Positions 24,511 to 34,286 of a stretch of DNA of 34,286 nt are shown one piece after another. Under the pieces are notes generated by a model. The model searched no databases and had not been told where the DNA came from. It saw nothing but the letters and a program-made list of their open reading frames with translations. The stretch is from Fimbriimonadales bacterium (lineage in GTDB: Bacteria; Armatimonadota; Fimbriimonadia; Fimbriimonadales; GBS-DC), in NCBI GenBank assembly GCA_025061985.1, contig JANXAW010000001.1:1-34286 (forward strand), written 5' to 3'. The position numbers and the translations under genes were made by a program. Position 1 is the first letter of the stretch; every line of letters begins with the position of its first letter.

Positions 24511-25150
24511 CGAGTCCTTGATTGACACGGATGTTGGTATTTACGGTGCGCCCGCCGAACCGCTGGTCAACATTGTACACCTCGATTTTGCTCGGAATCC
24601 AAATGCCAGGTGCGGCTTCCACAGGATCCTTGTATTCGAAGCGAGCGCGGTAGCGTCCTGTGCGGCTATACCACACGCGTCGTGCGGAGTAGCGTCGCTC
24701 AGGGTCTATCCAAACGATGTGGCGGGCGTCATCGTCGCCGTAGTTCCACTGGAGTTCGAACACGAGATATAAAACGCCGTTTTCACGCTCTTCGCGCAAA
24801 AACTTTACATCAAACCGGCGGGCAAGCGATGGGGTGAAAAAGCCGAAATCCATCGGGGTTTGCTTTTTGCCCGGCGAGTTGGACACATCTTCGCGAATGC
24901 GTTGGCGCGGAGCAATCACCAGCTTTTGCCCACCGTTGAGAATGTAGATTAGCCGTTGCCCTTGCACTTCCGACTCCAAGCGCAGTTTGAAGGGTTCCTT
25001 GTAGAACACGGTCATGCGACGGAAGCGGTAGGCGTTGGCAAAGTCTTTGTTGATTTTGCGCAGTTCGCCAAGACGCACGCCTTCGGCACGCGCTTCCATC
25101 TGCAAATCGCGCAGCTTATCCTGCGTTAGTGCCATAAACTCGCGATTCAT
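24488..25150 (-). CDS. LolA-like outer-membrane-lipoprotein-sorting-type protein
   Basis: A protein of about 220 residues resembling the LolA/LppX half-barrel group. Strands include FRRMTVFYKEPFKLRLES, QRLIYILNGGQKLVIAP, GVLYLVFELQWNYG, VWYSRTGRYRARFEYKD and IWIPSKIEVYNVD, the usual LolA alternation of substrate-binding strands and a shielding helix. No convincing signal peptide is visible after the chosen start, so localisation is uncertain. The ATG at 25148-25150 (MNREFMAL) fits the -10 at 25172-25177; a longer frame to 25249 begins inside the divergent WD40 gene. It ends in an overlap with the methyltransferase start. The family assignment is moderate. Confidence 0.65.
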   Translation of the reverse strand: MNREFMALTQDKLRDLQMEARAEGVRLGELRKINKDFANAYRFRRMTVFYKEPFKLRLESEVQGQRLIYILNGGQKLVIAPRQRIREDVSNSPGKKQTPMDFGFFTPSLARRFDVKFLREERENGVLYLVFELQWNYGDDDARHIVWIDPERRYSARRVWYSRTGRYRARFEYKDPVEAAPGIWIPSKIEVYNVDQRFGGRTVNTNIRVNQGLDDRLFSI

Positions 25151-25171
25151 GGCGGTTTGCCCCCACAAGCA

Positions 25172-25197
25172 AGTATACCTGCCGAGCGATAGGCAGG
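25172..25197 (-). promoter_or_regulatory. Divergent control region with -10 box and inverted repeat
   Basis: Minus strand GGTATACT gives a -10 hexamer at 25172-25177, 21 bases before the LolA-like ATG. Directly behind it, CCTGCC (25178-25183) and GGCAGG (25192-25197) form an inverted repeat with an 8-base spacer, where the -35/-10 spacer would lie. GATAAT near 25231 could serve the divergent plus-strand gene. Confidence 0.4.
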
Positions 25198-25247
25198 CTT
25201 CCACCCCTGCAATTTTTGGCATCTGTGTGCCGATAATCGCACTTGGC

Positions 25248-28200
25248 ATGCGAAGACTGGGAGTGGTTTTGGGTGCAGTGTGGCTGCTGGCGCTGAGTTG
25301 GAGCCAACAGATATTATGGCTTCAGCCGATTTTGACGGGGCAGGCGGTTGCTTATTCACCCGACGGGCAGCTATTGGCGACGCCCACACACGGCTTTCGC
25401 ATCGCAATTTATCAGGCGGGGCAATTGGTGCGCTTTCTGGAGGGTAGCAACGCGCTGGTTACCGACATAGCTTTCTCGCCCAATGGACAGGCATTAGCAG
25501 CTGTGAATATTGACGGACAGTTGCTGCAGTGGCGGCTGAGCGATGGAAGGCTTCTGTGGCAGGTGTCTGTCTTTACCAGTCAGGCGGTCTGCGTGGCTTA
25601 TGTAGGTGCCGACCTGATAGCTGTGGGAGGGGCAGAGGGGCAGCTGCAGTTGCGACGCGCCAGCGACGGCGCACTTATCCGAACGCTGTCGGGGCACGAA
25701 GAGACGGTGCGCGCTCTTGCCGTTGCACCTAATCAGGCAGAGTTGGTTAGCGTGGATGATGGTGGGCAGGCACGTGCATGGCAAGTTAGCGACGGAAGGC
25801 TACTTCAGGCTTGGCAAGCGCACGCAGGTGCGGCAACCGCCGTCGTATGGTCGCCCGACGGTGCTACCTTAGCCACTGCTGGAGATGACGGGCAGATTCG
25901 GTTGTGGAACCGCAACTTCCAAGGCGAGTGGAGGCTTGTTGGCACAATCAACGCGCACGAGTTTGGGGTCGCAAGGCTTGCCTTTGCTAACTCGACACTA
26001 CTGTACTCTGCAGGGAGTTTTGATGGCAGAGTTCGCCTTTGGAACACCGCCACGGGCACGCCAGTAAACGAGCTTCTCGCACACCCCAGTGGCGTTTTGA
26101 GTATGGCATTGCGCCCCGATGGCAGGGAACTGGCAACTGCAGGTTTCGAGCAAGAGGTGCGCTTGTGGAACCCCACCACAGGTGCTCTGCAGGGAATGTT
26201 AGGGGGGCATCGAGCCCCTGTAGCTGCCGTAGGCATCACTGGTAGCCAAGTCGTATCGGCGGGTTATGAGGGCGTTCTGCGTCTGTGGCAGTTTGCGAAC
26301 GGTTTTCCAGTAGGCGACCGAATTGCTCATGATGCTTCCATTCAAGCAGGAGCCGTTGCCCCAACGGGCGGTGCGATTGCCGTGGGGGATGTTGCAGGGC
26401 AGATTACTGTGCGTGCCTTGCCCAGCGGCAACGAAATCTATCGGCGCGGGGCACACGAGGGAGCGGTACTCTGCCTTGCCTACTCGCCTGACGGCACCAT
26501 GCTGCTTAGCGGTGGCGAAGACGGACAAGCAAAGCTGTGGAACGCCGCAAACGGCGCGCTTATGCGCACTCTTAGTGGACATGGGGGAAGTGTGCTAAGC
26601 GTAGCAATCGGCGCAAACCTTGTCGCAACGGGCGACACAGCGGGGCAACTGCGATTGTGGAACCCTACCACGGGGCAAACAGTGCGCGTGATTGACACGC
26701 AGCAGGGGAGCATCCTCGCGCTTGCCTTCTCGCCCGACGGTACGCTTATCGCCTCAGGAGGCGCGGATGGCACGGTCAAACTTTGGCGCATCGCCGAGGG
26801 CACACTGCACCAAGCGTTCGTTGGGCACGAATGGGGTGCTACGGCATTAGTGTTTGTGGATGCACAGCGATTGTTCACCGCCGACGGCACAGGCTACCTG
26901 CGCCTGCTGGATGTGCAAGTGGGGACCGTATTGGGGCAATGGCAGCCGACTCCGGGGCGCATCCAATCGCTTGCCCTTAGCACCGATAGGCGCCACTTAG
27001 TGGTTGGAGGCGACGAAGGCGTTGCGCTGCTGCGCTTTACTGAAACCCTCAACCGCCCGCCCGATCCACCTGCACTACTGGAGCCTGCCGAAGGAGCGAC
27101 GGTTCCACGCACGCCCACCTTCCGCGTGCGCATCAGCGACCCTGACCACGACCCGATGGAAGTCGAGTTAGAAATCGAGCAGCAGGGGCAGCGATACACT
27201 ATGCGCAGCGCCCCGCAGCTTAGTGGCGCAGAGGTCACGCTCGCATGGGAAGGGGCGCCGCTGCGCCCAGGCGTAGCGACTTGGCGCGCACGAGCCATCG
27301 ACTCCCAACGCAGCGTAAGCACTTGGAGCGAGCTACGGACCTTTACCGTACTCAACAACCCCCCAAATCAACCCGAATTGCTGGAGCCAGCCGATGGAGC
27401 CACCGTCTCTGCCCAGCCGCGCTTCCGGGTGCGTCTCACTGACCCCGACGGCGATCGCTGCCGCGTCATCATCCAGATTAGTGGCAACAATCAAGACCTC
27501 GTCCTTCGCTCCAGCTTGGTGGACTCTGGCGCCGAGGTAGCGGTCTCGGTTCCAGAGCGGTTAGCGCCTGGCACTTACGCTTGGCGGGCAAAAAGCGAGG
27601 ATGCATTCGAAGCCAGAAGCGATTGGACAGCGACACGCACTTTCACTGTGCCCCAGCCTAACCGCGCGCCAGATGTACCAGAACGCCTCGAACCGCCTAA
27701 TAGTGCAACTGTCTCGCCCACGCCTGTGCTGCGCCTAAGGCTCTCAGACCCTGACGGCGACCGCGTGAAGGCAATCGTGCAGATTCGCCCAGCTAACGGC
27801 GAGTCGCTTTTGCTGGAAGGCGACTTTGTGGAGGCTGGAAGCGTGGCAGAAGTGCGCGTACCTGCCACGCAACCGCTGGCGGCTGGTACCTACCAGTGGC
27901 GCGCTCGCGCGATTGACAGTCGCAACGCCTCCAGCGATTGGAGCGAGTGGTGGACTTTCCAAGTAAGCGAGGGCAACAACGGGGGTGGCGGCGACAATCC
28001 GCCTGCCAACCGCCCGCCGAGTGTGCCTGCACTGCTCGCTCCTGAGGCAAACAGCATCGTGTCGCCAACGCCCATCCTACGCGTTAGAGCAGAAGATCCC
28101 GATAACGACTCGCTTCACTATGAGATTGAAATCTTCACAAACGATCGTCGTTTCCTCTTTACCACTGGGTCGGCACCCAGTGGTCAGGTGGTGGTGTTCC

Positions 28201-29579
28201 GTGTGCCTGCTGAGCCGCCCTTGGCTACAGGGGTGTGGCAATGGCGAGCACGTGCGCGCGATAGCGCAGGGAACCTTAGCAGCTGGAGCGAGCCACGCCA
28301 CTTCACTGTCAGCGATGCACTACCTTCGCGGTTGCAAGGCGTGCAAACCTTTGGGTTGAACCTGCAGGTGAGCGATACCTCGCTAAACGCGCTCAATCTC
28401 AGCCAAGCCCGCGTAGTGGAATGGGATGCCGCTACCCAGCAGTATCGGGATGCTGACCGAATTCAAGTGGGCAAAGGCTACTTCGTCAAGGCGGACACGC
28501 CTGTGCATCCTGAACTAAGCGGAGCACCAATTACAGGTGAGGTACGCATCGTTCTGCAGCCAGGTTGGAACCTTATCAGCAACCCGTACCTGACGCCCTT
28601 CGCGTGGAACTTGGATGCGATTCGCGTAGTGTATGCGGGCGAAACTCGCTCGCTTCGCGATGCCCACAGCGCGAGCTGGATAGAACCCTACGCGTGGTGG
28701 TGGGACGGTACTCAGCGCCAGTACCGACTGGTATATGACCCGCAGGTAGTGCCAAACGCCCAGGGGGAGGTGCCGCCTGGGTCAGGTGCGTGGGTGTTGG
28801 CGTGGCAGCCGTGCGAGCTTATCCTTAGCCCAAGCGGGCGTAGCAGGCGCGCGCCTCTTGCCGAGCGAGGCGGGTGGTCGCTGCGCATCCAAGCCTGTGT
28901 AGACGAAGCCGCACGCGAGGTGGTGCTTGGGGTTGGCACATCGCTGCAAGCTGTGGCGCCGCCCACCCCGCTGGATACAAGCACTCCCGTTCAGGCGCAC
29001 TTGCGTCGCGCCCAAGCCCTGCTAAGTGCCGACCTGCGTAGCTTCACTGAGCCACTAGAGTGGACGCTGGAGGTAATGGTCGCGCCTGCTCAGGCACCGC
29101 GCGTCGCCGAGTTGAGGTTTCCCGACCTTGCATACCTGTCGCGCGCAGTTACTTTGGTGTTGTACGACCACCAAGCGGGACGCACGGTACCCTTGCAAGG
29201 GCGTGGTCGCTACCGATTTGAGGTGCCTGCGGAAGGTGGCGTATTTCGGTTCCGTGTGCAGCTGGTGCGTACGCAAATGCCGTTGCGCATCTTGCAGCCT
29301 GTAGTGCAAGGTGGACGCGCTTCTGGTGGTCAGTTCACCATTCAGGCAACGCTCACTGCGCCTGCACACGCCCAAGTGCAGATTATCGCTGCAGGGCGCG
29401 CTGTGCGCACGCTTCCGCCCCAGTTCCTTCGCTCGGCGGGGATGCTGCAAACCACTTGGGACGGGCGCGATGATGCAGGGCGCGCCTTGCCTCCGGGCAC
29501 TTATCTTGTGCAAATCACGGCGCAAACCGAGGACGGACAAGTGGCACGCGCTACCATCCCGCTCATCTTGACGCGCTAA
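25248..29579 (+). CDS. Secreted WD40 double propeller, Ig/Fn3-like, FlgD-like tail
   Basis: A 1443-residue exported protein. The ATG at 25248 begins a signal peptide (MRRLGVVLGAVWLLALSWSQ); the frame is open further upstream but runs over the divergent gene. About 14 WD40-like repeats (residues about 25-600) each contain a SPDG-type turn and a DG-x-(I/V)-x-LW end, consistent with two seven-bladed propellers. Four Ig/Fn3-like domains follow (about 600-1020), each starting NRPP/NNPP..P.LLEP and ending W.A.A.D......W. Next comes a region with GWNLISNPYL (about 1105), common in secreted proteins of these lineages. The last 100 residues (about 1345-1443) are a FlgD-like Ig domain with TTWDGRDDAGRALPPGTY. 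A large cell-surface or secreted scaffold is likely; the ligand is unknown. Confidence 0.9.
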   Translation: MRRLGVVLGAVWLLALSWSQQILWLQPILTGQAVAYSPDGQLLATPTHGFRIAIYQAGQLVRFLEGSNALVTDIAFSPNGQALAAVNIDGQLLQWRLSDGRLLWQVSVFTSQAVCVAYVGADLIAVGGAEGQLQLRRASDGALIRTLSGHEETVRALAVAPNQAELVSVDDGGQARAWQVSDGRLLQAWQAHAGAATAVVWSPDGATLATAGDDGQIRLWNRNFQGEWRLVGTINAHEFGVARLAFANSTLLYSAGSFDGRVRLWNTATGTPVNELLAHPSGVLSMALRPDGRELATAGFEQEVRLWNPTTGALQGMLGGHRAPVAAVGITGSQVVSAGYEGVLRLWQFANGFPVGDRIAHDASIQAGAVAPTGGAIAVGDVAGQITVRALPSGNEIYRRGAHEGAVLCLAYSPDGTMLLSGGEDGQAKLWNAANGALMRTLSGHGGSVLSVAIGANLVATGDTAGQLRLWNPTTGQTVRVIDTQQGSILALAFSPDGTLIASGGADGTVKLWRIAEGTLHQAFVGHEWGATALVFVDAQRLFTADGTGYLRLLDVQVGTVLGQWQPTPGRIQSLALSTDRRHLVVGGDEGVALLRFTETLNRPPDPPALLEPAEGATVPRTPTFRVRISDPDHDPMEVELEIEQQGQRYTMRSAPQLSGAEVTLAWEGAPLRPGVATWRARAIDSQRSVSTWSELRTFTVLNNPPNQPELLEPADGATVSAQPRFRVRLTDPDGDRCRVIIQISGNNQDLVLRSSLVDSGAEVAVSVPERLAPGTYAWRAKSEDAFEARSDWTATRTFTVPQPNRAPDVPERLEPPNSATVSPTPVLRLRLSDPDGDRVKAIVQIRPANGESLLLEGDFVEAGSVAEVRVPATQPLAAGTYQWRARAIDSRNASSDWSEWWTFQVSEGNNGGGGDNPPANRPPSVPALLAPEANSIVSPTPILRVRAEDPDNDSLHYEIEIFTNDRRFLFTTGSAPSGQVVVFRVPAEPPLATGVWQWRARARDSAGNLSSWSEPRHFTVSDALPSRLQGVQTFGLNLQVSDTSLNALNLSQARVVEWDAATQQYRDADRIQVGKGYFVKADTPVHPELSGAPITGEVRIVLQPGWNLISNPYLTPFAWNLDAIRVVYAGETRSLRDAHSASWIEPYAWWWDGTQRQYRLVYDPQVVPNAQGEVPPGSGAWVLAWQPCELILSPSGRSRRAPLAERGGWSLRIQACVDEAAREVVLGVGTSLQAVAPPTPLDTSTPVQAHLRRAQALLSADLRSFTEPLEWTLEVMVAPAQAPRVAELRFPDLAYLSRAVTLVLYDHQAGRTVPLQGRGRYRFEVPAEGGVFRFRVQLVRTQMPLRILQPVVQGGRASGGQFTIQATLTAPAHAQVQIIAAGRAVRTLPPQFLRSAGMLQTTWDGRDDAGRALPPGTYLVQITAQTEDGQVARATIPLILTR
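28161..28184. repeat. Perfect 10-bp stem hairpin inside the WD40 gene
   Basis: ACCACTGGGT (28161-28170) and ACCCAGTGGT (28175-28184) flank CGGC. It encodes part of the fourth Ig-like domain. A coding origin is possible, but the symmetry is complete. Confidence 0.6.
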
Positions 29580-31176: not shown

Positions 31177-31402
31177 AACTTTTGCCCAGTTTTCCGTATT
31201 AATACTATGTGGAAGCCCCTTGCGCGGGATAGCACGCCCCCACGGGAGGGACACGCGCTGAGCAGCAGAGCTTTCCAGAGCCGACGCGACCAAGCCACAT
31301 CGCAGGCACGAACATCAAGCGCAACTGCTTTCCCGAAGCGTGGGGGCTGCAAAGCGTATCGATAACCGACGCCGAGAATCCTAACAGGAGGTTGAGCGAA
31401 CT

Positions 31403-32326
31403 ATGGCAGCGTTCACTCCAGCAGAAGTTGAGGTCATCCTGCGCCGCTTAGCAGACGAGAAAGCGGAGCGGTTCCAGCGCGAGGTGCTGTTCCCTCAGAT
31501 GGCACGCGCGATGCGCTTGCCCTCGAGCGATGGTAAGGCGGTGCGGGAGGCACTGGCAGACCCGTACTACGCCTTCCGCGTAATGCTGGGTTACTATGCG
31601 TTTGCAAAGCGTGGCAACGACCGCGTGGAGTATTCTAACTTCGCGTTGCAAGCGCTGGAGCGCGTACTTAAGGGGAACAAAGCCAACTTCGGCGCATTCT
31701 TGGCTTCTGGCGACGCGCCCGCCCAACTGTGGAACGCCTTTGTGGAGGTCTGCCAGCAGAACCAGCGTAAGGTCAACGAGCAACTCAACCGCGGGCTGAT
31801 TGAGGGCTTAGCTGCCTACGCCGCGCGCGTCTACGCCGAAGACGAAATCGGCAACATCTGGATGGATATTCAGCAGGCGATTGTCAAGTCGGGGCGCGTG
31901 GAACCCATCTACCAGAAAATCACCGAAATCCGCGGCATCGGACCCAAAGTCGGCTCGCTGGTGCTGCGCGACATGGTCGCAATGTATGACCTTGAACGCT
32001 CCATCGAGCCAAGCGACTACCACTACCTCCAGCCCGTAGACACTTGGATCCGACGCATTGGCCCGATGCTGACCGATGAAATCACCGAAGAGACCGCCGA
32101 CTGGGTGATCGCGGGCAAGCTCTCCAAGCTATGCCGTCGCCACCAAGTCAGCGGCGTGCGCTTCAACCAAGGCGTGCAGTACCTAGCGATTGTGGAGCTG
32201 CGCGACCTTGAGCGACTGAAGCCGTACCTGCGCAGCTTGGCTCAGAGCGCCTCGCGCACAACCGACGGCACACGCGCTGCCACAGGCACGCGCCCAGCCA
32301 CACGCTCGCTCACTTGGCGCGGGTAA
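31403..32326 (+). CDS. HhH-GPD DNA glycosylase-like protein, possible new subfamily
   Basis: A 307-residue protein whose middle resembles the helix-hairpin-helix-GPD family. The hairpin is IRGIGPKVGSLVL (about residues 176-188). Lys182 aligns with the Schiff-base Lys of endonuclease III (GVGRK), and Asp213 in PVDTWIRR aligns with the catalytic Asp (VDTH). The Lys-Asp spacing is about 31 residues, against 18 in E. coli Nth, so there is an insertion. The C-terminal four-cysteine iron-sulfur cluster of Nth is absent (only one Cys follows). The first 150 residues are helical without a recognised domain. The ATG at 31403 has AGGAGG upstream. The function may be base excision, but activity is unproven. 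Confidence 0.65.
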   Translation: MAAFTPAEVEVILRRLADEKAERFQREVLFPQMARAMRLPSSDGKAVREALADPYYAFRVMLGYYAFAKRGNDRVEYSNFALQALERVLKGNKANFGAFLASGDAPAQLWNAFVEVCQQNQRKVNEQLNRGLIEGLAAYAARVYAEDEIGNIWMDIQQAIVKSGRVEPIYQKITEIRGIGPKVGSLVLRDMVAMYDLERSIEPSDYHYLQPVDTWIRRIGPMLTDEITEETADWVIAGKLSKLCRRHQVSGVRFNQGVQYLAIVELRDLERLKPYLRSLAQSASRTTDGTRAATGTRPATRSLTWRG

Positions 32327-32931: not shown

Positions 32932-33519
32932 ATGCGACGCGGACTGTGGTACGGAGTGGTCTGGAGCATTGCGTTGGCAACGGCTTTGGCTCAGCCTGCT
33001 GCGCTGCAAGAAGATCCGCTGTTGCAACGACGCATTACCGTCTGGCTCAAGCTGGAGCCGATGCGCGACGCGCTGCGCTTCATCGCGCGACAAACGGGTG
33101 TGTCTTTGCGCTGCCAAGATGCGATTGCTGAAGAGAAAGTGGCAATCTTTGTGGAGAACCGCCCCGCCCACGAGATACTGACTCAGTTAGCGCGCGTGTT
33201 TCGATACGAGTGGCGTCTGCACGAGGATGGGGGCTACATCTTGTATGTGCCCGACGAGACACGCTTTGCAGAAGAGCGGCTCGCGCGCTATGCGGGAGGC
33301 GCGTCGCAAAGCAGTAAGGGATTTAGTGCAAGCAGCGCGCAAAGTGCGCCAGATGAGCCTGCAGCAGCGCCAAGAAGCGCTCCGAGCACTTCAGCAAGAC
33401 AGCAAGACGCCTTCCACGCCAGAACAACTGGCATTCAGGACTGCCCTGCAGCACATGACACCCATCAGAGTTCAGCTTGCAACCACCGATGGGCAACTTA
33501 CGCAGGTAGAGGTACATGA
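32932..33519 (+). CDS. STN-domain secreted protein, N-terminal part before a frame break
   Basis: The frame begins with a signal peptide (MRRGLWYGVVWSIALATALA). Residues about 36-100 resemble the short secretin/TonB N-terminal (STN) domain: LKLEPMRDALRFIARQTGV, then FVENRPAHEILTQLARVFRY and a final strand. Up to about residue 120 (ARYA, near 33290) the sequence looks natural. After that it becomes a Ser/Ala/Pro-rich string that shadows a better coding frame, and stops at 33519. The real protein therefore probably continues in the frame starting at 33290. The gene is either broken, misread by one base, or uses frameshifting. Its function could be in an outer-membrane secretin or type II/IV pilus assembly, or another envelope role. 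Confidence 0.65.
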   Translation: MRRGLWYGVVWSIALATALAQPAALQEDPLLQRRITVWLKLEPMRDALRFIARQTGVSLRCQDAIAEEKVAIFVENRPAHEILTQLARVFRYEWRLHEDGGYILYVPDETRFAEERLARYAGGASQSSKGFSASSAQSAPDEPAAAPRSAPSTSARQQDAFHARTTGIQDCPAAHDTHQSSACNHRWATYAGRGT

Positions 33520-34286
33520 CGGCAAGTATGCCGTGTTGCACGCTTTGGCTGCCCTACCTGAGCGCGCAATTCAGGCACTTCTGAACGGGCAGACGATAGG
33601 GCTAAGCACGAAGCCTGCTGCAGGCATATATCCCCTGCCTGACGATGCACTCTTACCCAACTACATGCGCAGCCCGAGCATAGTTCGGCGTAGCCTTGTG
33701 GAGGATGACCAGGTATACCCGCCACGCAACCCAGAGTTTGCAGGGATGTGGTTGCGTCTACTCCCACGCATAAGCGCGATTGAGTGCTGGCTGATCAGCG
33801 TGCGAACAAGTCAGCCTGATACTGGCAACCCTTCGTCCGCTAATCCAATTCGGGAAACTACGTGTACCACAGCCATCGTGCCTCTTGAGCTGACGGCATA
33901 TCTCCAAGAAGAGCCACTTCTGCGGGAGTGGAGCAACTGGGCAACTCGTAGGGAAGCGCTGCTCGAATCAGTCCCCGAACGGTTCAGCCCTACCGAAGAA
34001 CGCCCCCTCCGCACCCCCCCAACTTATCGATGCGTGGGGAGAGTAAGCTGCAATCATGTGACTACTGCGGACGCCTTGGAACTGCTCGCGTGGACGACAC
34101 GCCGTCCTATTGTCGGCGACGCCTTTCGGCTGGTAAGAGTTTGGTATGAGCCTCAGCGCCAGTACATGCCTCGCATGCTCTTATCCGACCTCCTGCCGTA
34201 CTGCTGGGTTCGTGCAGACGAGTCGGACTACTTGCTCGTTAGACACCGGTTCTACTGGGACTACCAGCAGTATGAGTTGCCAGAGG
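33290..34286 (+). CDS. Continuation of the STN protein in another frame, open at window end
   Basis: From ATG 33290 the second frame stays open for 332 codons to the end of the window with no stop. The opening MREARRKAVRDLVQAARKV and the following MSLQQRQEALRALQQD are typical amphipathic helices, followed by a longer mixed alpha/beta region. This is much more protein-like than the end of the overlapping frame. A +1 shift at about 33287-33290 would join it to the STN-domain part (ERLAR joined to MREARR). There is no strong ribosome-binding site before the ATG. I recognise no family in this part. The C-terminus lies outside the window. Confidence 0.7.
   Translation, partial: MREARRKAVRDLVQAARKVRQMSLQQRQEALRALQQDSKTPSTPEQLAFRTALQHMTPIRVQLATTDGQLTQVEVHDGKYAVLHALAALPERAIQALLNGQTIGLSTKPAAGIYPLPDDALLPNYMRSPSIVRRSLVEDDQVYPPRNPEFAGMWLRLLPRISAIECWLISVRTSQPDTGNPSSANPIRETTCTTAIVPLELTAYLQEEPLLREWSNWATRREALLESVPERFSPTEERPLRTPPTYRCVGRVSCNHVTTADALELLAWTTRRPIVGDAFRLVRVWYEPQRQYMPRMLLSDLLPYCWVRADESDYLLVRHRFYWDYQQYELPE

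Follow-up and report, generated by a model that had tools for sequence, protein, structure and literature searches.

A divergent protein family of Fimbriimonadales with a predicted HhH-GPD fold and an extended lysine-to-aspartate span

In the HhH-GPD superfamily, the catalytic lysine and aspartate sit at helix starts; the lysine of Escherichia coli EndoIII is K120, and the two residues lie 18 apart in MjOgg, a member of the OGG2 group. AGOG is a proven glycosylase/lyase with the pairs K140/D172 and K142/D174, at a spacing of 32 (PMC9638937, drawn on here, like the other PMC sources, in excerpt). The AGOG residues superimpose on those of OGG1 and OGG2, and AGOG is described as archaea-only in the excerpt available (PMC3397491). 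The AGOG hairpin is reversed in orientation, and the 8-oxoG pocket residues of Pab-AGOG are Q24, W62, F146, K149, D208, and W212. Here, we report a family from the bacterial order Fimbriimonadales that carries a comparable lysine and aspartate at a spacing of 31, and that most likely comprises lysine-dependent DNA glycosylases.

The window is the whole 34,286-nucleotide stretch analyzed (contig JANXAW010000001.1, assembly GCA_025061985.1), taken from a genome bin of 1.35 Mb that is 65.9% complete; the features of the gene and the open reading frames downstream of it described below lie on its plus strand. An ATG-started open reading frame at 31403 to 32326 (307 codons) encodes a 307-residue protein of an unnamed family with a predicted HhH-GPD fold, and is preceded by a likely ribosome-binding site, AGGAGG (31386 to 31391, 11 bases upstream of the ATG). 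It is a genuine gene under purifying selection: pairwise dN/dS against seven relatives was 0.08 to 0.15 (NG86) and 0.06 to 0.08 in the five pairs for which YN00 returned values, residues are conserved among homologues, and the predicted fold matches known structures. Elsewhere in the window, positions 25035 to 29579 hold a 1,514-residue open reading frame that reads by eye as WD40-like repeats and then segments resembling fibronectin and FlgD.

Sequence profiles did not place the protein. Against Pfam, the window protein had no match better than E 0.27 and none to PF00730 at E values up to 10, and against NCBIfam it had no match. A set of 26 family members was no more revealing, since PF00730 was absent from the 16 families listed for them (E up to 1), the best Pfam match was to flagellar FlaF (E 0.0072, two members), and the best NCBIfam match had an E value of 0.022, both of which we take as chance. 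PADLOC profiles matched none of the 26 members. Among PDB sequences, neither the window protein alone, nor the full profile, nor the divergent paralogue found anything relevant; a profile of the hairpin region alone gave sub-threshold matches to OGG2 (E 0.63 and 1.1) and topoisomerase V (E 0.42 to 0.75). With hhalign, the family aligned to the MutY, OGG1, and Nth proteins of relatives at probabilities of 1, 69, and 72%, over 27 to 87 columns around the hairpin, and at 3% to one single Nth-like sequence. Seven members of a distant-homologue alignment searched against PHROGs gave a best E value of 0.0082, the family hit having no assigned function; four queries run against viral contigs yielded no confirmed relative; and in a phage collection two queries had no match, while the window protein (E up to 10) had one irrelevant match at E 9. 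The literature search returned no paper joining Fimbriimonadales to a DNA glycosylase, and no title on this family. The absence of any credible family match agrees with the earlier description of the protein as a divergent, distinct subfamily.

An AlphaFold2 model built on the 26-member alignment had a mean pLDDT of 91.9 and a pTM of 0.87, and the sole stretch below pLDDT 50 was a tail at residues 290 to 307 (32270 to 32323) that is variable in the same alignment. VIA-align 2 compared the model with 997 chains, 85 of which had Z scores of at least 8. All 50 of the matches listed belonged to the HhH-GPD superfamily (EndoIII, OGG2, MutY, OGG1, Mag1, AGOG, thymine-DNA glycosylase, and Qng1) with Z scores of 11.1 to 8.4, a range in which the score (below about 13) can reflect only the common arrangement of helical proteins. 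EndoIII-3 (8a5g; Z 11.1, root mean square deviation [rmsd] 5.0, 221 residues aligned) led the list, with EndoIII 4uob (Z 11.0), E. coli EndoIII 2abk (Z 10.8, rmsd 3.8, 199 aligned), and MjOgg 3knt (Z 10.5, rmsd 4.3, 191 aligned) among the others. In most EndoIII, OGG2, MutY, AGOG, and Qng1 rows listed, 191 to 231 residues were aligned, over model ranges running from residues 1 to 9 through to residues 265 to 283. Because the list is uniform, the ranges are near full length, and the lysine and aspartate fall at helix starts, a chance fold match is unlikely.

Other searches set limits on this result. No PDB match to the model passed E ≤ 0.001 in Foldseek. Transporters and an unrelated synthase filled the six leading rows (probability 0.12 to 0.30), glycosylases appeared from rank 7, and within the best 50 the rows for OGG1 and MutY had probabilities of 0.47 to 0.89 and query TM-scores of 0.27 to 0.40. 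A divergent copy from another genome (L142, 20% identity), modeled from an alignment of 16 family members (pLDDT 79.1), again had only HhH superfamily members among the 50 matches listed by VIA-align, with four OGG2 entries on top (Z 13.0, 12.1, 11.8, and 11.4, the fourth being tied with EndoIII at 11.3); this model is no independent test, since its alignment consisted of family members. We therefore file the window protein, from its model, in the HhH-GPD superfamily at the level of the fold, as a predicted all-alpha, two-domain protein with a helix-hairpin-helix, belonging to a family named in no profile library searched. A fold unrelated to HhH-GPD, which would have spoken against the initial annotation, was thus not what the model predicted. 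The N-terminal 150 or so residues, called unfamiliar at that stage, do not stand apart in this model, because alignments to EndoIII, OGG2, and MutY begin at residues 1 to 9; this region belongs to the fold and is a larger form of the N-terminal half seen in these proteins.

Conservation was read from rows collected by hmmsearch with the 26-member profile (E ≤ 1e-5; 122 rows, 62 distinct, among which truncated copies of one protein may count separately, and of which one, L080, misses the lysine/aspartate site). The predicted helix-hairpin-helix spans residues 167 to 194 (31901 to 31984), with model helices at 167 to 174 and 181 to 194 and a sub-threshold alignment to OGG2 (3fhf and 3fhg). Its hairpin, IRGIGPKVGSLVL, contains K182 (31946 to 31948), the putative Schiff-base lysine; the stretch G178-I-G180-P-K182 runs into the second helix, near the start of which K182 lies. 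K182 is lysine in all 61 distinct rows that cover the site, so the G-x-G-x-K hairpin lysine of the bifunctional type is present throughout, and the hairpin glycines are nearly as constant (G178 in 58/61, G180 in 60/61). The GPD element P211-V-D213 (32033 to 32041), within QPVDTW, carries the putative catalytic aspartate just ahead of model helix 214 to 223; P211 is proline in 56/61 rows, and D213 is aspartate in 57/61, asparagine in L079, L083, and L085, and glycine in the partial L088. Both residues are thus kept in homologues, the lysine in all of these rows and the aspartate in most. The three asparagine rows read QPIN and retain the lysine; their sequences suggest that this subset may have altered chemistry. 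Other conserved positions are R189 (61/61), E198 (60/60), G257 (60/60), W234 (60/61), and W110 (59/61).

K182 and D213 are separated by 31 residues. Among the PF00730 proteins of relatives, 5 Nth-like and 11 MutY-like ones have an equivalent spacing of 18 (counted in the latter from the tyrosine that replaces lysine in MutY) and 6 OGG1-like ones a spacing of 19, the labels having been assigned by eye from motifs to 23 of 30 fetched loci (11 MutY-like, 6 Nth-like, and 6 OGG1-like), with seven loci (L153 and L160 to L165) left unlabeled; the sixth Nth-like protein, L091, was left out of the spacing figures. The insertion of about 13 residues proposed from the window sequence thus holds up as a real one of 12 to 13 residues, provided that D213 is the catalytic aspartate. 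The extra residues lie in an extended segment between the hairpin and the GPD element (residues 195 to 210; 31985 to 32032), which includes a short helix at 203 to 209 and D205. The divergent copy L142 has a spacing of 29; in L016, L017, and L019, where the script picked an earlier P-x-D, the aligned aspartate is that of the 26-member alignment.

The assignment of K182 and D213 as catalytic residues, made from the window sequence, stands firmly for the lysine and less so for the aspartate. When the 26-member alignment was set by hhalign against the Nth and OGG1 alignments of relatives, their catalytic aspartate faced D205, not D213. D205 sits in E-P-S-D, 23 residues past K182, and is kept in 54/61 rows (six glutamate, one lysine). 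We favor D213, because P-V-D-T-W-I-x-R copies the P-V-D-T-H-V-x-R of the relatives' Nth, and because D213 directly precedes a helix, gives a spacing near that of AGOG, and is slightly better kept than D205; the exact residue is less sure. The glycosylase reading is independent of this choice, so its odds are unaffected.

Two further motifs may contribute to substrate handling. The conserved loop Y-x-F-x-x-R-G-x-D-R at residues 65 to 74 (31595 to 31624; R70 and G71 in 58/60 rows each, Y65 in 57/60) joins model helices 54 to 65 and 71 to 88. We take it to correspond by topology to the alphaB-alphaC wedge loop of EndoIII, and it is possibly a DNA wedge loop itself. The motif V249-S-x3-F-N255-x-G257-x2-Y260 (residues 249 to 260; 32147 to 32182), at the start of model helix 251 to 265, is likewise well kept (S250 in 58/60, N255 in 56/60, Y260 in 53/60) and is possibly a wall of the base pocket. 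The equivalent region of OGG1, OGG2, and AGOG combines a polar residue with an aromatic one, four positions later, that stacks on the base, the pairs being Gln315/Phe319, Asp194/Trp198, and Asp218/Trp222, respectively (PMC3397491, excerpt). By analogy, N255 and Y260 (or a tryptophan one residue earlier in the archaeal and L142 sequences) could take the polar and aromatic roles.

Against this background, the protein resembles several described groups without joining any of them. OGG2 structures (MjOgg 3fhf/3knt, SsOgg 3fhg, and Tm1821 3n0u) share the predicted fold (Z 10.5, 10.4, 10.2, and 9.7 with the window model), and in the sub-threshold alignment the family pattern K-x-x-S-x-[FLV]-[LVI]-R-[DN] faces K-E-A-S-H-F-L-R-N of MjOgg. 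Unlike OGG2, the window protein is about 100 residues longer, its lysine and aspartate lie 31 apart, and the C-terminal lysine, which reads 8-oxoG in OGG2 (PMC3397491, excerpt), is not conserved (2 of 26 members end in lysine). AGOG (PF09171; 1xqo) is also all-alpha with a lysine and a P-x-D, at a spacing of 32 versus 31, and aligns over 222 residues (Z 8.6, rmsd 4.8), but its Z score is below those of EndoIII and OGG2, and PF09171 matched neither the window protein nor the 26 members. Across 61 phylum genomes, PF09171 gave no match over its cut-off; 2 of the 14 controls matched, both below it. EndoIII and MutY share the hairpin and the aspartate, and EndoIII gave the top single Z scores, within 1 of OGG2; the window protein differs in having about 60 more residues ahead of the hairpin than EndoIII, 13 extra residues between lysine and aspartate, and no 4Fe-4S pattern. 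The absence of the Nth cluster, remarked on in the initial annotation, extends to the family, as C-x6-C-x2-C-x5-C occurs in 0 of 26 members and the window protein has two cysteines. In sum, the span resembles that of AGOG, and the hairpin and the L142 model most resemble OGG2; with no PF09171 match and no conserved C-terminal lysine, we do not hold the family to be a member of either.

The single window protein (E ≤ 0.001) found matches in 41 of 61 relatives and in 74 of 291 phylum genomes, one of which, G259 (E 1.8e-4), was dropped by the 26-member profile. That profile (E ≤ 0.01) matched 73 of 291 phylum genomes, 72 in the window's order and one outside it (G284); the homologue in the latter (L143:1690-2442) is interrupted by an in-frame TGA. 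Within the window's own taxonomic family, 17 of 18 genomes match, the miss (G003) being 68% complete. In the other families of the order many genomes match and several near-complete ones do not (e.g., G019, G026, and G041), which indicates that the gene is dispensable there. Of the 73 bearers, 71 have one match; G023 carries the second, divergent copy L142 (20 to 22% identity to the window protein). A scan of named genomes gave 52 loci with Armatimonadota/Armatimonadetes, Fimbriimonad-, or Chthonomonas-labeled titles, besides two titled "bacterium" and one "Bacterium HR15"; many of the named relatives are titled as Fimbriimonadales. Distant homologues occur on plasmids of Haloquadratum walsbyi C23 (L145:5827-6792) and DSM 16790 (L146:4545-5456). 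A search with the window protein reached the C23 copy at E 4e-6, with 24% identity across residues 67 to 262, and the DSM 16790 protein, 60.6% identical to the C23 copy, was reached via L142 (E 0.07). Both have the lysine and a P-I-D at a spacing of 31, and both are annotated as hypothetical proteins; they also carry a C-terminal segment missing from the bacterial rows of the distant-homologue alignment. The Haloquadratum plasmids also carry NucS-like, Mrr-like, and HNH genes no more than about 2 to 3 kb from the homologue.

The SRPBCC-fold gene (PF03364; 32339 to 32851) that begins 12 bases past the stop codon had been offered as context but carries little weight: its family was found in 5 of 53 loci, and a partnership was rejected. 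Downstream, open reading frames 32932-33519 and 33227-34285 lie in different frames with an overlap of about 290 bases, the second leaving the window end; they could be a single gene interrupted by a frameshift that is either genuine or an assembly artifact. The 16 loci nearest the window have no neighbor common to all, and small groups share some. In the other 37 loci, a caspase-domain gene lies upstream in at least 32, coaX downstream and convergent in at least 29, and glmM in at least 27, all lower bounds given short contigs and with opposite-strand shadow open reading frames set aside by eye; one representative caspase-like protein (L052:6509-7876) matched PF00656 at E 2.5e-8. We could not connect these genes to a repair role.

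Taking the evidence together, the protein is most likely a lysine-dependent (bifunctional) N-glycosylase/AP lyase acting on DNA, to which we assign a probability of roughly 0.6. The joint conservation of lysine and aspartate argues, by comparison with related folds, for the bifunctional chemistry of the superfamily. The hairpin before K182 would grip the DNA backbone, and the loop at residues 65 to 74 would wedge into the helix, so that a damaged or modified base could flip into a pocket that the 249 to 260 motif helps to line. K182, assisted by D213, would then attack C1′ and free the base; the sugar would be held as a Schiff base, and cutting 3′ of the site by beta-elimination may follow. 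The four rows that depart from aspartate, together with the non-DNA activity of Qng1, call for caution on function. The initial annotation is, overall, partly supported, and a role in DNA repair is something that we infer.

It is unlikely that the family instead acts like Qng1 (DUF2419), a nucleoside/nucleotide N-glycosidase, with a nucleotide or RNA, rather than DNA, as the source of the modified base that it releases. DUF2419 proteins share the superfamily fold and free queuine from queuosine (PMC9406330, excerpt), and their structures align over long stretches (7ugk, Z 8.9, rmsd 5.3, 231 residues, the longest among the matches listed; 7u1o, Z 8.6, 220 aligned), but at lower Z scores and higher rmsd than EndoIII and OGG2. 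Their substrate class differs, and PF10343 did not match the window protein and was absent from the list of families matched by the 26 members. Nor did it give a match over its cut-off in 151 phylum genomes, where the controls were also silent, making this absence weak; the single match below the cut-off was, by eye, a uroporphyrinogen-decarboxylase-like protein. The near-invariant hairpin glycines also favor DNA, as in repair enzymes the hairpin binds DNA phosphates (PMC3397491, excerpt).

A non-catalytic DNA-binding protein that recognizes lesions or DNA structures on an HhH-GPD scaffold is an improbable alternative. It would accommodate the 4 of 61 rows with asparagine or glycine at D213, and Sis-HhH-GPD has Ser152 in departure from the usual aspartate (PMC11754123, excerpt). 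The title of that paper, however, concerns alkylated-DNA repair, and a pure binder would need neither the invariant K182 nor the nearly invariant D213. An amino acid:DNA transferase of the ADDT/aGPT-PPlase kind, modifying bases rather than removing them, is highly improbable, since its support consists of a top BFVD row to a Mycobacterium phage Fortunato protein with an ADDT domain (E 0.19, probability 0.82, TMq 0.35, no BFVD row reaching E 0.001) and of an aGPT-PPlase domain listed among predicted, unvalidated defense domains (PMC13092281, excerpt), whereas PF18724 matched neither the window protein, the 26 members, nor 201 phylum genomes (a weak absence, as the controls were silent too), the phage M6 ADDT found with that profile has a lysine-to-aspartate spacing of 14 rather than 31, and no hypermodification genes were recognized among the neighbors looked at, mostly by eye.

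Returning to the DNA glycosylase reading, 39 of the 41 relatives (a count that takes in the window's genome) have between one and five PF00730 matches; the incomplete bin of the window and G002 have none. Related genomes thus also carry Nth-, MutY-, and OGG1-like genes, and the family is probably not a mere substitute for any of these. More tentatively, and with doubt outweighing confidence, it may constitute one more class of lysine/aspartate DNA N-glycosylase, alongside Nth, MutY, OGG1, OGG2, and AGOG, with the 31-residue span, shared by Fimbriimonadales and halophilic archaeal plasmids, and acting on a lesion or modified base unhandled by the hosts' Nth-, MutY-, and OGG1-like proteins. The family escapes the profile libraries searched, and its Haloquadratum homologues pass as hypothetical proteins; the window protein is small and directly expressible and assayable. 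New glycosylase families are uncommon, and one of them can bring to light a lesion or modified base whose handling was previously unrecognized.
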